A stretch of DNA of 30,023 nucleotides from a virus, in the IMG/VR virus record IMGVR_UViG_3300037963_001192, positions 1 through 30,023 of that record; one strand, given 5' to 3'. Positions 1-30,023 of the stretch are shown here, in pieces; positions within the stretch are counted from its first letter, which is position 1, and the number at the start of each line of letters is the position of its first letter. The notes under the pieces were generated by a model, which saw only the letters and a program-made list of their open reading frames with translations, made no database searches and was not told where the DNA came from. A program made the translations under genes and the position numbers.

Positions 1-100
1 ATCTTATCTGCTTTATGGACAGGAACTGATGGTGATAGTAGTAATAATGATGCTGTTCTTACATTGTTTCCATCAGCAGGACAAGATGCTAAAATAGTAA
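1..100. repeat. Left copy of terminal direct repeat (circular assembly overlap)
   Basis: Bases 1-100 match 29924-30023 at all positions except base 99 (A here, G at 30022). The reading frame continues exactly from one end to the other, so this is the overlap expected when a circular or circularly permuted genome is assembled, not a true physical terminal repeat. The mismatch falls in the third position of a valine codon (GTA versus GTG). Confidence 0.85.
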
Positions 101-1685: not shown

Positions 1686-3245
1686 ATGGCAGGATATTCA
1701 AAAGAAATAAAGATTACAACAGCTAAAGGTGAGTATTTAAAAAACATATCAGGTAGTTATGATGTAATATTTGACAAAATTATAAAAGTAGATAATTCCA
1801 ATGCAGGAATTGATTTAGTTAATTATTCAAGAGATGTAGCTAATGATACTATGGTAGCACCTAAAGCAATACTTGTAGAAAATACAGGCAATGTAGGTTG
1901 TGAACTTTTAATATCTACTGCTGAATGGACTACAGATGCAGACAACACAGCAGACTCTATGAGTGATGCAACCCATTATTTAGCAATGTTGTTACCTGCT
2001 GGTGAATGTGCTTATTTGCCTAATAATAGGCTTATTGGAGTATCAGGAGCAGTTGGAGGTGGTATGGGTGTATTAGTTGATAATGCAGTACCTGATTCTA
2101 ATGAATATGTAGATAGTGGTGCTGATGTAGACCATGCAACATCTGCTACTATGGGGTCAGATGCAACTCACACAACTCTTAACTTGGAAGATGGGCATAG
2201 TAAATATTTTAAAGTAGGTGACCTAATAAGACTAGAAAATGAAATATGTGAAGTTACAGCAGTAGGTACAGGTGCAGATTTAGCTAATAGCACACTTACA
2301 ATAATTAGAGGTTTGTATGGCTCAACAGCAGCAACTCATGCTGATGATGTAGCTGTTAGATTACCTTTTTTTAATATGCACCATGATTTTGATGACACAT
2401 CATATAATGGTGGTGGTAATGGTAGTGCTACAGTAGTAAAAACAAATGCAAGTGGCAAATTTAGAGCAATGAATTTCTTTGGATATGGAAGAACAGCAGA
2501 TGCTGTTTGTGATGGATTAGTTGCAGGAAGTGTGGCTATAAAGTTTTATAGTCATGGTTATCAAGAGTTTGGTTTAGCAGGAATTACACCTTCTACAAAA
2601 ACAGGTTTAGCAGCATCTACTACATATACATTTGGCTTATCAATATCAGGTGGCTCTGCTGATGATGTAGCATTTACTACAGATTCTAGTGATTTAACAT
2701 TTGGAAATGTAATATCTAAAATACAAAGTGCAATCAATGATAAATTTACATCAGGAACAAATTTAAAACACAAAAAAGCAACAATAGGAATTGTAAATGG
2801 TGATATTAGAATTACAGATAGTTCAAGACTATCAACTGGTGCTATTGCAATATCAGCACCTTCAGGTGGAACAACACCACTTGGTGTAGGTATTATACCT
2901 GCTGTTGGAAACTTGGAAAAAGCAGTTGTAGCTAAATTACCTGATGACACAATATATGATTCTGTAACCTATGCTTCTAGAAAAAACTCAGGAGCATTTT
3001 TGTTAGATAATGGTAATGGAGTTTTATCAGGAGCAGGTGGCTCTGCTACAATAAATTATGAAACTGGAGAAATTAGAATGGATGCCTACCCTAATGCAGA
3101 ATTTGTTGTATCTGCAAATACTAAGGCAGGTCATGCAGGTGGGGTGGAATCTAGTGCAACTACTATGAATGGCATAGTAACACTAGAAGCAAGAAGCTGT
3201 AATGCAAAAGCAGATACAGATATAAGAGTAATAAGTTTAGGTTAA
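1686..3245 (+). CDS. Structural protein, probable tail fibre or tail-associated
   Basis: A 519-aa protein with ribosome site AGGAGA just before the ATG. Recognisable stretches are KVDNSNAGIDLVNYS near residue 35, ILVENTGNVGCELLIST, and a central segment from about 160 to 225 (LNLEDGHSKYFKVGDLIRLENEICEVTAV, TLTIIRGLYGSTAATH). The last resembles the small hub-like beta domain found in many marine phage virion proteins that ends in an IIRGxxGTxAxxH phrase. The C-terminal third is Gly/Ser/Thr-rich and beta-like. Last of three consecutive fibre-like genes, followed by a 106-base gap. Exact position in the virion is unknown; structural assignment rests on composition and neighbourhood. Confidence 0.6.
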   Translation: MAGYSKEIKITTAKGEYLKNISGSYDVIFDKIIKVDNSNAGIDLVNYSRDVANDTMVAPKAILVENTGNVGCELLISTAEWTTDADNTADSMSDATHYLAMLLPAGECAYLPNNRLIGVSGAVGGGMGVLVDNAVPDSNEYVDSGADVDHATSATMGSDATHTTLNLEDGHSKYFKVGDLIRLENEICEVTAVGTGADLANSTLTIIRGLYGSTAATHADDVAVRLPFFNMHHDFDDTSYNGGGNGSATVVKTNASGKFRAMNFFGYGRTADAVCDGLVAGSVAIKFYSHGYQEFGLAGITPSTKTGLAASTTYTFGLSISGGSADDVAFTTDSSDLTFGNVISKIQSAINDKFTSGTNLKHKKATIGIVNGDIRITDSSRLSTGAIAISAPSGGTTPLGVGIIPAVGNLEKAVVAKLPDDTIYDSVTYASRKNSGAFLLDNGNGVLSGAGGSATINYETGEIRMDAYPNAEFVVSANTKAGHAGGVESSATTMNGIVTLEARSCNAKADTDIRVISLG

Positions 3246-4377: not shown

Positions 4378-4820
4378 TGGCAGTTACTTATACAAATAAT
4401 TTTAATAATATAATGGACAAGCTGATGGAGATTGTAAAGGCAGAAATGCCAATACCTGTTGTGAAAGCAACCCTAGCTGACCCTTTATTAAAAGCAAATG
4501 AGTCTATAAGGATAATACCTAATGGCTCAACATTAACAGAGTATGCTTCATTTATGGAGCAAAGGGAATATAGTATAACAATACAATATGTGTTTCAAGA
4601 TAAGAGAGAAAGCCACAACTTTTTAGACCATGTGATGAATAATTGCAGTAGGCTAGAGGCTCTTATACATGAAAATATCTCAATAACATTAGCTGATTCA
4701 ACTACAGCATTTGACCTAAGAATGAATAATATGGAACTAGATGCAGAGATAGAAGATGAGGAAGGCTTTTATGTTGCTGAATATGACCTTAGTTGTCAAC
4801 ATATTGGTAATGTAGCATAG
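4377..4820 (+). CDS. Tail terminator / head-tail joining protein candidate
   Basis: A 147-aa protein translationally coupled to the connector gene by a one-base overlap. It has an amphipathic N-terminal helix (NNIMDKLMEIVKAEMP), then alternating beta strands (ESIRIIPNGS, REYSITIQYVFQD) and a C-terminal strand set (VAEYDLSCQHIGNVA). Size, fold pattern and position directly before the tail tube gene are typical of siphovirus tail terminators, which cap the tail tube and join it to the head. No specific catalytic motif is expected. A head-closure role is an alternative. Confidence 0.5.
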   Translation: MAVTYTNNFNNIMDKLMEIVKAEMPIPVVKATLADPLLKANESIRIIPNGSTLTEYASFMEQREYSITIQYVFQDKRESHNFLDHVMNNCSRLEALIHENISITLADSTTAFDLRMNNMELDAEIEDEEGFYVAEYDLSCQHIGNVA

Positions 4821-6421: not shown

Positions 6422-6808
6422 TTGATTGTCAATGTTTGGCTTTCAGTTAAAAGACCACCATTAGATAAAGTAAAAGAGTTTCCTTATAAGGCTTTAAATC
6501 CTGTAACACATCAGGAAGTTTTAATAGAAAGCAATGCTGAAATAGATAGGATACTAATGGATTGTTATGTAGAAGCTATAAATAAAGGTTATGATATAGG
6601 TGAAGCCTTATACAATCAACTATTTTTCTTTACTGACCCTATATATATTTATAATGAGGATTGTCAAAATCTGATAAAAAAATATGTATTTTGTGACAAT
6701 TTTAACTGTCCACCTTACCCAAGTTTACAAGAAACACCTGCTGAATTAGTAGATAATTTTTTACTTATTAAAAAGGAACTTAGCAACCCAAACATGAAGG
6801 AAAAATAA
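6422..6808 (+). CDS. Tail assembly chaperone C-terminal extension (gpT-like, expressed by -1 frameshift)
   Basis: This frame carries 128 codons counted from a TTG at 6422, but there is no ribosome site in front of it and no ATG near its beginning. It is in the -1 frame relative to the 6150-6419 ORF, so it is best read as the T part of a G-T fusion made at the A9 run. The part contains KRPPLDKVKEFPYKALNP and a helical C-terminus (YPSLQETPAELVDNFLLIKKELS). In known phages the T part binds the tail tube subunit while the G part binds the tape measure. It ends immediately before the tape measure ATG. Confidence 0.7.
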   Translation: MIVNVWLSVKRPPLDKVKEFPYKALNPVTHQEVLIESNAEIDRILMDCYVEAINKGYDIGEALYNQLFFFTDPIYIYNEDCQNLIKKYVFCDNFNCPPYPSLQETPAELVDNFLLIKKELSNPNMKEK

Positions 6809-15232: not shown

Positions 15233-15257
15233 ATACAATCAACATACAGCAACAAAA

Positions 15258-15281
15258 GAGGCTCTTAATTGAGCCTTTTTT
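15258..15281 (+). terminator. Rho-independent terminator after the tail operon
   Basis: A perfect 6-bp stem, AGGCTC at 15259-15264 and GAGCCT at 15271-15276, closes a 6-base loop (TTAATT). It is directly followed by a T-run (15276-15281), and the A-run in front extends the helix through a G-U and A-U pairs. It lies 26 bases after the last tail gene and separates the late and early regions. This is the clearest terminator in the window. Confidence 0.9.
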
Positions 15282-15414
15282 GTATATATTATATATTTAT
15301 TATAATTATTTCTCCTCTATAAATAAAAATAAATTATAAAAATGTTTGGAAAAGTTATATAAACTATATTAACTTAGGTTAAGGTTGAAGGTTAAAAAAT
15401 AATAGGAGATTAAA
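15282..15414 (+). promoter_or_regulatory. AT-rich leader before the early genes, probable early promoter region
   Basis: This 133-base gap between the late terminator and the first early gene is very AT-rich and holds several TATA-like stretches, of which TATATT at 15365-15370 is a possible -10 box. I could not find a convincing -35 element at the right distance. Three AGGTT units occur at 15376, 15382 and 15389, the first two forming AGGTTAAGG, which recurs at two other intergenic sites. The gap ends with the GGAGATTAAA ribosome site. A promoter here is expected because the terminator would otherwise leave the early genes untranscribed. Confidence 0.4.
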
Positions 15415-15792
15415 ATGGAAAAAGCAATATATGAAATAGAGATAGATGGAAAACAAGAAAAGTTGTGTGAAAGTGAATTTAAGAAATTAATTAAAGCAAA
15501 AAATCAAGGCTTTATTTTTGAGGTAAGCAGATGGGGTCATATATATCTATATTTAGATATAGAGGATTTCAATCCCAGAAGTAGCTGGAACAGGTTTGTA
15601 ACTTTAGCAGAAGCTAAAAGATTTGCTATTAATAATGCAGAAGTAAATGGAAATAGAATGCATTTTAATTGGGATATAAGAAATAATGTGAATCTGTGCA
15701 GCATATGGGAAGACTTTCAAAGTGAATATGATGGTGAGTTGGAGGATTTGCCTAATGGATTATTAAAAAAGTTTTCTAAGTATATATATTAA
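15415..15792 (+). CDS. Hypothetical early protein
   Basis: A 125-aa soluble protein that begins the early region with a strong ribosome site (GGAGATTAAA then ATG). Sequence features are an N-terminal strand (AIYEIEIDGKQEKLCESEF), a VSRWGHIYLYLDIED strand pair and a Trp/Asn-rich middle (RSSWNRF, HFNWDIRNN). There is no membrane segment, signal peptide or recognised catalytic motif. As the first early gene it might act on host functions, but that is only positional. The hammerhead-like ribozyme begins two bases after its stop codon, so cleavage would detach its coding part from downstream messages. Confidence 0.7.
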   Translation: MEKAIYEIEIDGKQEKLCESEFKKLIKAKNQGFIFEVSRWGHIYLYLDIEDFNPRSSWNRFVTLAEAKRFAINNAEVNGNRMHFNWDIRNNVNLCSIWEDFQSEYDGELEDLPNGLLKKFSKYIY

Positions 15793-15793
15793 A

Positions 15794-15848
15794 TCCTACT
15801 GATGAAGCACCCCTCTTTGAGGGGTGCAGTAACCCAAGTGGTCTAGGA
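15794..15848 (+). ncRNA. Hammerhead ribozyme (type I), with one core deviation
   Basis: The 55 bases contain all parts of a hammerhead in order. Stem I is TCCTA (15794-15798) with TAGGA (15844-15848). The core CTGATGA is exact (15799-15805). Stem II is 9 bp, GCACCCCTC (15807-15815) with GAGGGGTGC (15819-15827), and loop TTT. The second core piece is GTAA (15829-15832) where GAAA is canonical. Stem III is ACC (15832-15834) with GGT (15840-15842), loop CCAAG-type of five bases. The cleavage triplet is GTC, predicting cleavage after C15843. Deviations are A13 to U (T15830) and an A-A instead of G-C at the base of stem II. Type I topology (open at stem I). Activity is not proven; the core change could slow it. 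Confidence 0.75.
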
Positions 15849-15883
15849 AACAAGGTTAAGATTAAATAAACAAGGAGATTAAA

Positions 15884-16072
15884 ATGATAGAATTGAAAAT
15901 AAAAGAATTATGGGCAAAAGGGGAAATTTCACATTTAGGTGATATGCCTGATGATGCTGATATGCAAACATTAAAAGTATTTGCAGACTTAGAAGATGTC
16001 CTGAAATGTAAACAAATTAACTGGAATCATTATTGGGATAGAATTAATTGGAACAAATTATTAAATAAATAA
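15884..16072 (+). CDS. Small hypothetical early protein
   Basis: A 62-aa acidic, tryptophan-rich protein with the ribosome site GGAGATTAAA before the ATG. It appears as two helices (IELKIKELWAKGEIS and ADMQTLKVFADLEDVLKC) followed by an NWNHYWDRINWNKLLNK tail. No membrane segment and no known domain were seen. Its message would start 40 bases downstream of the predicted hammerhead cleavage site, so self-cleavage would give it a short 5' leader with a hydroxyl end. Function unknown. Confidence 0.65.
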   Translation: MIELKIKELWAKGEISHLGDMPDDADMQTLKVFADLEDVLKCKQINWNHYWDRINWNKLLNK

Positions 16073-16088
16073 AGAAGGAAAACTTGTA

Positions 16089-16149
16089 TGGCTCACACAA
16101 GGCTTTTGACTAGGAAAACTTGCAAGGGTGGAAAGGCAAAAGTGAGCCA
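16089..16149 (+). other. Inverted repeat, possible structured RNA
   Basis: TGGCTCAC (16089-16096) pairs perfectly with GTGAGCCA (16142-16149), eight base pairs closing a 45-base loop. Giving up the last pair allows CTTTTG (16103-16108) to pair with CAAAAG (16137-16142), making a longer stacked rod. Both arms lie upstream of the real start of the next gene (16178). A long in-frame ORF from 16088 would read through it, but its ATG lacks a ribosome site. A structured leader or non-coding RNA fits better than coding sequence. Confidence 0.45.
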
Positions 16150-18070: not shown

Positions 18071-18109
18071 TTATTGTTAAGTTAAAAGGTTAAGGAAAAG
18101 GAGATTAAT

Positions 18110-19324: not shown

Positions 19325-19347
19325 AAGAAGCAAGAAGAAATAGATAT

Positions 19348-19417
19348 GAGGGCAGCATTAACCTTAACCTTTCAAATCCCACACTCTCAATGGGTTTGAT
19401 TCTCCTATGTTGCCCTC
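19348..19417 (+). other. Structured intergenic RNA candidate covering a start codon
   Basis: Bases 19348-19358 (GAGGGCAGCAT) pair with 19407-19417 (ATGTTGCCCTC) over 11 positions with one G-U pair. Inside, TCAAA/CCCA (19372-19381) pairs with TGGG/TTTGA (19391-19399) with one bulged T and a 9-base loop. The outer helix contains the ATG (19407) of the zinc-ribbon gene, so the fold would hide its start. I tested a tRNA fold in both directions and it fails. Could be a translational switch, an unknown RNA or a processing element. Confidence 0.5.
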
Positions 19418-19580
19418 AGAAAAAAAATGTAGAAAGTGCAATAAAGTTCAAGACAAGAAAGAGTTTTATGTTATTTATTCAGGCTATAAATACAACACTT
19501 GTAAAAGCTGTTATAAAAAAATGAACACAAAAAAATATAAGGAGATTAAAGATAGGAAAAAAAAGTTCAAGCTGTGGTAA
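19407..19580 (+). CDS. Small zinc-ribbon protein of HNH-associated type
   Basis: A 57-aa protein with two CxxC knuckles: CRKC at 8-11 and CKSC at 32-35, spaced by KVQDKKEFYVIYSGYKYNT. This KxCxxCxxxKxxxEFY...CxxC pattern is common in small phage proteins and in the N-terminal parts of HNH endonucleases; here no HNH part follows, and the C-terminus is a lysine-rich helix (MNTKKYKEIKDRKKKFKLW). There is no AGGAG before its ATG, and the ATG lies within an RNA helix (19348-19417). It overlaps the beginning of the RusA frame. Confidence 0.5.
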   Translation: MLPSEKKCRKCNKVQDKKEFYVIYSGYKYNTCKSCYKKMNTKKYKEIKDRKKKFKLW

Positions 19581-29679: not shown

Positions 29680-30023
29680 AGAACTTAAAATAGAGAATCA
29701 GTTAGACACACACCTAAAACAGATTAAGATAGGTGAAACAGCTACACCTATAGAAATATCAACTGAAAAAATCAGAATGAATAAAGATTTAATCTGTGTT
29801 GAGAATATTGAAGTTGAAGGTGGTTTTAATTTAAATAGCAGACAAATACTTTTTCCTGACCAAATAGTTTTAGAAGCTAGTGAAGCACAAGGTGGCTTGT
29901 CATTAGAAGCTACAGGTTTTTCTATCTTATCTGCTTTATGGACAGGAACTGATGGTGATAGTAGTAATAATGATGCTGTTCTTACATTGTTTCCATCAGC
30001 AGGACAAGATGCTAAAATAGTGA
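29672..30023 (+). CDS. Tail fibre / receptor-binding-like structural protein, N-terminal part (continues at base 1)
   Basis: This is the 5' end of the 378-aa fibre-like protein whose remainder is at 1-885. The first 60 residues (LKIENQLDTHLKQIKIGETATPIEISTEKIRMNKDLICVENIEVEGG) are a known opening in marine phage fibre genes, presumably the virion-attachment part. AAGGAG lies about 20 bases upstream inside the preceding gene, and the start overlaps that gene by 8 bases. The frame has no stop up to the window end and joins exactly with base 1 when the 100-base overlap is merged. Confidence 0.75.
   Translation, partial: MSKELKIENQLDTHLKQIKIGETATPIEISTEKIRMNKDLICVENIEVEGGFNLNSRQILFPDQIVLEASEAQGGLSLEATGFSILSALWTGTDGDSSNNDAVLTLFPSAGQDAKIV
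29924..30023. repeat. Right copy of terminal direct repeat (circular assembly overlap)
   Basis: Same sequence as bases 1-100, with one change at 30022 (G instead of A). See the left copy. The unique genome is therefore about 29,923 bases if the overlap is collapsed. Confidence 0.85.

Follow-up and report, generated by a model that had tools for sequence, protein, structure and literature searches.

An intercistronic type I hammerhead ribozyme in a phage, with a probably weakened core allele

Results

Between two same-strand genes of the window (by which we mean the whole stretch of 30,023 nucleotides that was analysed), behind the stop codon of the first and before the Shine-Dalgarno sequence of the second, lies a 55-base motif that follows the layout of a type I hammerhead to the base (15794-15848, + strand; Table 1). 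The upstream TAA ends one base ahead of stem I. Neither flanking protein has a homologue in the viral contigs searched. A preliminary description, made from the letters of the sequence, had placed the motif between two genes and assigned its parts; the location is confirmed and the parts and positions are correct to the base. A 14-codon open reading frame running through the motif (15802-15846) lacks a Shine-Dalgarno sequence, and a coding role was rejected, the frame being judged accidental.

Table 1. Coordinates of the hammerhead, its parts and the adjoining genes in the window
Feature	Position	Strand	Basis or remark
Upstream gene, 125 aa, no family match	15415..15792	+	TAA 15790-15792
Whole type I hammerhead	15793..15849	+	span matched by models R1 and R2
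Stem I, 5' strand TCCTA	15794..15798	+	partner 15844-15848
Core CUGAUGA (C3-A9), canonical	15799..15805	+	sequence
Stem II arm, including A10.1/A11.1 mismatch (15806/15828)	15806..15828	+	sequence, fold
Stem II GCACCCCTC/GAGGGGTGC, 9 Watson-Crick pairs, loop UUU	15807-15815 with 15819-15827	+	
Core G12 U13 A14	15829..15831	+	U at 15830 in place of conserved A13
Stem III ACC/GGU, loop CAAGU, A15.1-U16.1 included	15832..15842	+	strands 15832-15834, 15840-15842
C17 of GUC triplet, predicted cut 3' of this base	15843	+	predicted from hammerhead chemistry
Stem I, 3' strand TAGGA, putative 5'-OH end of downstream message	15844..15848	+	
Shine-Dalgarno-like AAGGAG of downstream gene	15872..15877	+	sequence
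Downstream gene, 62 aa, no family match	15884..16072	+	ATG 41 bases past C17

Read 5' to 3', the elements follow one another as UCCUA-CUGAUGA-A-GCACCCCUC-UUU-GAGGGGUGC-A-GUA-ACC-CAAGU-GGU-C-UAGGA. All three stems are fully paired on both strands and the core is intact at every base other than 13, with the C3 U4 G5 A6 N7 G8 A9 stretch, the A15.1-U16.1 pair (A15832-U15842) and an H17 base (C15843) all in place. Two sites of the motif deviate from the canonical consensus: the G12 A13 A14 segment, which is GAA in all genuine relatives, carries U13, and positions 10.1 and 11.1, paired in the consensus, hold an A-A mismatch (A15806/A15828). No contact between stem I and loop II is evident in the window, where stem I has 5 base pairs and no bulge.

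The unconstrained minimum-energy fold consists of the three hammerhead stems (-22 kcal/mol), and an equally good fold was reached by 3 of 200 shuffles of the 57-mer. A descriptor covering hammerhead types I-III and scored by stem pairing gave the window 42 as type I, against a best score of 35 in 420 Mb of Markov sequence; the same run gave 45 for the hammerhead of phage Bcep176, 34 for a copy in phage PaP3 and 37 for a copy in L118. Given a strong hairpin, the chance of equally good flanks is about 2e-7. A covariance model built from four loci only (R1; L163, L190, L179 and L181, the window being left out) and run with filters off matched the whole span at 56.3 bits (E 9.1e-14), the next-best match in the window being 15.3 bits, and a model built from 40 hammerheads (R2) gave 55.3 bits. 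A chance hairpin is ruled out by the Markov null, the flank estimate and the E-value of the independent model, in line with the earlier judgement that a chance occurrence was very unlikely. An intrinsic terminator is likewise ruled out, because no U-run follows the motif.

All viral contigs were scanned with the pattern CTGATGA-N8-38-GNAACC-N3-9-GGTCTAGG, which returned 45 loci, 37 of them hammerheads as judged by their stems. The core, stem III and UAGG columns of these loci carry no weight because the pattern fixed them; left free were the CCUA strand, stem II, base 13 and the intergenic position, and a CCUA partner, a stem II hairpin and an A at position 13 were found in 37/37 hammerhead loci. 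Stem I is compensated in copies that the search pattern did not pick up, for instance TCGCA/TGCGA and ATCCA/TGGAA. By descriptor and R1, at least two copies each are carried by L167, L168, L169, L175, L179, L188, L192 and L205, and the contigs with the family span 32-62% G+C. Among 84,980 species genomes there was one match, in an Anaeroplasma MAG, with the same order of stop codon, ribozyme, Shine-Dalgarno sequence and start codon. The exact stem II pattern gave no match, the GTAA-core pattern returned 89 stretches with no true relative among them, and BLAST found no match in cultured phages; a match in G018 (0.04) and two weak ones in PaP3 were regarded as noise.

Two side observations can be added. 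In a recurrent natural variant of the core, A9 and stem II are separated by an unpaired U (CUGAUGAU-stem-GAAA); it is seen in L167, L169, L174, L176, L182, L184, L191, L192, L197, L200 and L205. The L118 copy (6546-6606, - strand), a type I hammerhead with a perfect core, was a chance find in a viral contig unrelated to the others.

Covariation was assessed in a model-fitted alignment of 40 rows (A4), which replaces a MAFFT alignment (A1) that misplaced stem II. In A4, whose fitting to a model favours the model's own structure, 97.6% of cells are paired and both-side changes occur in 12 of the 17 pairs; stem III, which was fixed in the search pattern, does not vary. Covariation scores 0.465, whereas shuffles score 0.095; sliding the partners gives at most 0.109 and makes the paired fraction collapse. 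The slid controls favour real pairing in A4, as do the extra copies in which stem I is compensated. The three stems occur in type I order with covariation, a property that the preliminary description had named as a check and that is strong in hammerheads of other phages. On these comparisons, homology and covariation identify the 55-base motif as a type I hammerhead ribozyme, and the identity first proposed for it is borne out.

What are the neighbours of these ribozymes? When open reading frames of at least 40 codons are counted, 28 of 39 copies have a stop codon whose end falls anywhere from 2 bases inside stem I to 4 bases before it, compared with 254 of 7800 random positions (3%). The commonest spacing, shared by the window, is a stop codon ending exactly one base before stem I; the copies in L162, L175 and L188 are more distant. 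The next ATG lies 6-36 bases past the motif in 33 of 38 copies. Clustering puts the upstream and downstream neighbours into about 30 and 26 unrelated groups, respectively, a few of them shared between contigs, and the neighbours that can be named include an AAA ATPase and ArdC-type antirestriction proteins (L163, L190, L167). The ardA gene lies next to hammerheads described earlier (PMC3088659), and there is possibly a recurring link between hammerheads and antirestriction genes. In the cultured Pseudomonas phage PaP3, R2 finds a copy at 44035-44112 (- strand), directly behind the ORF67 stop codon.

The window phage belongs to an AT-rich group with 30 kb genomes, and terminase relatives up to 97% identical occur in viral contigs. 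None of the 30 records of its relatives examined contains a hammerhead; in L017, the closest of them to include the region, the first early gene is followed instead by a terminator-like hairpin. A terminase-based search for a host in bacterial genomes gave no match. The A-A mismatch together with an AGCAC...GUGCA stem II is found in the window, L163, L190, L204 and L179, and the second copy in L192 has a stem II (GCACCUCUC-AUU-GAGGGGUGC) nearly identical to that of the window. One of the L192 copies lies at 3152-3207. In L181, positions 10.1 and 11.1 are paired. Two window proteins have homologues in L192 (51% and 70% identity), which is consistent with gene exchange. Of the two oddities pointed out in the preliminary description, U13 is indeed confined to the window, against A in 37/37 relatives, while the A-A pair turned out to be no peculiarity, being common to L163, L190/L204, L179 and L192.

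Rfam, proposed earlier as a check, gave no match in the window, either at the gathering threshold or in a permissive search, so that the RF00163 gathering score is not reached. This silence is uninformative, since at gathering Rfam also missed the published PaP3 and Bcep176 hammerheads and reported 0 of 19 tested loci of the window's hammerhead family, relatives with a canonical core included. RF00163 (Hammerhead_1) gives L118 16.1 bits against a gathering score of 34, and RF03152 (RAGATH-1-hammerhead) gives L190 15.4 bits against 56.3. Both models have the same secondary structure as the family, whose tested members fall below their gathering scores. The extent of the family is probably underestimated, because standard Rfam annotation misses it.

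Discussion

Here, we propose, at a probability of about 0.7, that the motif is a phage intercistronic type I hammerhead that would split the message between two accessory genes, and that the window copy is probably a weakened allele. It is one of a family of compact type I hammerheads found between cistrons in diverse phages, with a layout of stop codon, about one base, the ribozyme, a Shine-Dalgarno sequence and a start codon. The three stems would form in the primary transcript, which would cut itself after C17. Cleavage would leave the upstream cistron with the hairpins of stems II and III and, at the 3' end, a 2',3'-cyclic phosphate; the downstream cistron would open with a 5'-OH, about 40 bases ahead of the AUG. 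Both ends would be expected to resist common bacterial exonucleases and decay that depends on a 5'-monophosphate, and neighbouring genes could be uncoupled with neither promoter nor terminator. The separation of upstream and downstream cistrons suggested in the preliminary description fits the placement seen in dozens of relatives.

Cleavage of gene-flanking prophage hammerheads has been seen in vitro and in E. coli, and the splitting of long phage transcripts has been proposed (Perreault 2011, PMC3088659). The phage and prophage hammerheads of that study, among them PaP3 and the triple array of an Agrobacterium prophage, have the same core and occur in several copies per genome, and the PaP3 copy, like that of the window, is a type I fold that lies between phage genes and follows a stop codon directly. 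Compared with that set, many members of the window's family combine a long stem II (8-10 pairs) with either the A-A mismatch or, at 10.1, an unpaired U; U13 belongs to the window. The HHphage of haloviruses HF1/HF2 is part of a polycistronic early message and precedes a start codon by 13 bases; a mapped 5' end falls within three bases of its cleavage site (PMC3088659). It too is a variant hammerhead, but one with other core changes (insertions 2a, 2b) and from an archaeal virus. We found no papers on marine phage hammerheads in the open literature; an earlier description of this subfamily may exist, our search having been limited to open papers.

The weak point is the window allele itself. Mutation of A13 is reported to inhibit hammerheads 10-100-fold (PMC4075628), and because A13 is U here, the window copy probably cleaves 10-100-fold more slowly. 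Since the change is private to the window and probably slowing, the predicted cut after C15843 is weakened as a claim for this allele, and we judge that the window copy either cleaves slowly or is decaying. Some candidates deviating at more than one position are among the inactive ones of Perreault (2011, PMC3088659). A U-U mismatch at 10.1-11.1 does occur in nature and is active (PMC3088659). The U at 15830 may also be a sequencing or assembly error.

At somewhat worse than even odds, the window copy may be what is left of an intercistronic hammerhead that used to be active, now dead or dying and surviving only as a stable hairpin between genes. This would account for a U13 that is found only in the window although the scan accepted any base, and it is consistent with the lack of a hammerhead in every relative of the window phage examined and with the terminator-like hairpin that L017 has after its first early gene instead. 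Decay, however, would be expected to cost pairs as well, and the stems are perfectly paired and the other core bases intact. Moreover, A6 belongs to the same activity class as A13, and the natural A6C hammerhead of phage Bcep176 is active, more so with Mn2+ than with Mg2+ (PMC7151607). The Bcep176 element resembles that of the window in being a natural intergenic phage hammerhead with one core change; it differs in being type II, in the core position changed and in having no 10.1-11.1 mismatch.

Could the upstream stop codon have a role of its own? A terminating ribosome would cover about 12-15 bases downstream. A ribosome at the abutting stop would cover stem I and CUGAUGA, and only untranslated or fresh messages would be cut. 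We think such gating by translation unlikely, though it is an attractive extension in which ribosomes at the stop might keep the ribozyme open. Stop codons do lie within a few bases of stem I far more often than by chance, but compact phage genomes pack their elements tightly regardless, and the more distant copies of L162, L175 and L188 speak against it.

The idea that a strong hairpin acts here as an mRNA stabiliser or attenuator and has hammerhead-like flanks by chance, to which the standing of stem II alone among the strongest hairpins of the window and the silence of Rfam could be said to point, is effectively refuted by the homologues, near-identical elements with a full canonical core in other phages, and is opposed also by the independent-model E-value, a Markov null that never attains the score and the missing U-run.

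With the fixed placement of this family behind stop codons, across phages whose neighbouring genes are unrelated, the splitting of messages by an intercistronic ribozyme becomes directly testable. The natural variants (A-A, unpaired U, U13) form a built-in mutant series, and the cultured phage PaP3 carries the same arrangement.

Other elements of the window

A second conserved intergenic RNA of the window phage family, 65-68 bases long, lies 240 bases downstream of the hammerhead (16083-16148, + strand), with copies in L010 (5179), L012 (3989), L033 (5372), L037 (4292), L141 and L212. It forms a pseudoknot, in which a CTTGT/ACAAG stem carries a loop (GGCTCAC, GGTGCAT or GGCACAT) that pairs about 45 bases downstream. 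Changes occur on both sides, 100% of cells are paired and the covariation score is 0.270, against 0.085. The upstream stop codon abuts this RNA in several phages, giving it a similar position between stop codon, Shine-Dalgarno sequence and start codon. Rfam has no match for it, and we regard it as a candidate new structured RNA or ribozyme. A broader scheme, in which self-cleaving RNAs serve as interchangeable phage gene punctuation, the cut is controlled by upstream translation and 16083-16148 would be an undescribed ribozyme with the same job, strikes us as quite improbable.

Further elements were noted. A strong intrinsic terminator (15252-15283) separates the structural genes from the block of small accessory/early genes, and its hairpin is also present in L017 (around 4666-4692). 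A leader of the form GGTTAAG...AACAAAGGAGATTAAAATG is repeated before several small genes of the window (15376-15410, 15852-15883 and 18077-18109) and is found in L010, L012, L033 and L037 of the same phage family. At 19347-19420 a long stem (GAGGGCAGCAT...ATGTTGCCCTC) with a T-loop-like GGTTTGATTC gave no tRNA call; it holds TTAACCTTAACC, which is complementary to the GGTTAAGG repeats in the leaders near 15376, 15852 and 18086. Finally, sequence near the start of the window (1-80) recurs at its end (29944-30023), shifted by about 20 bases, so that the contig probably has overlapping termini and is complete.
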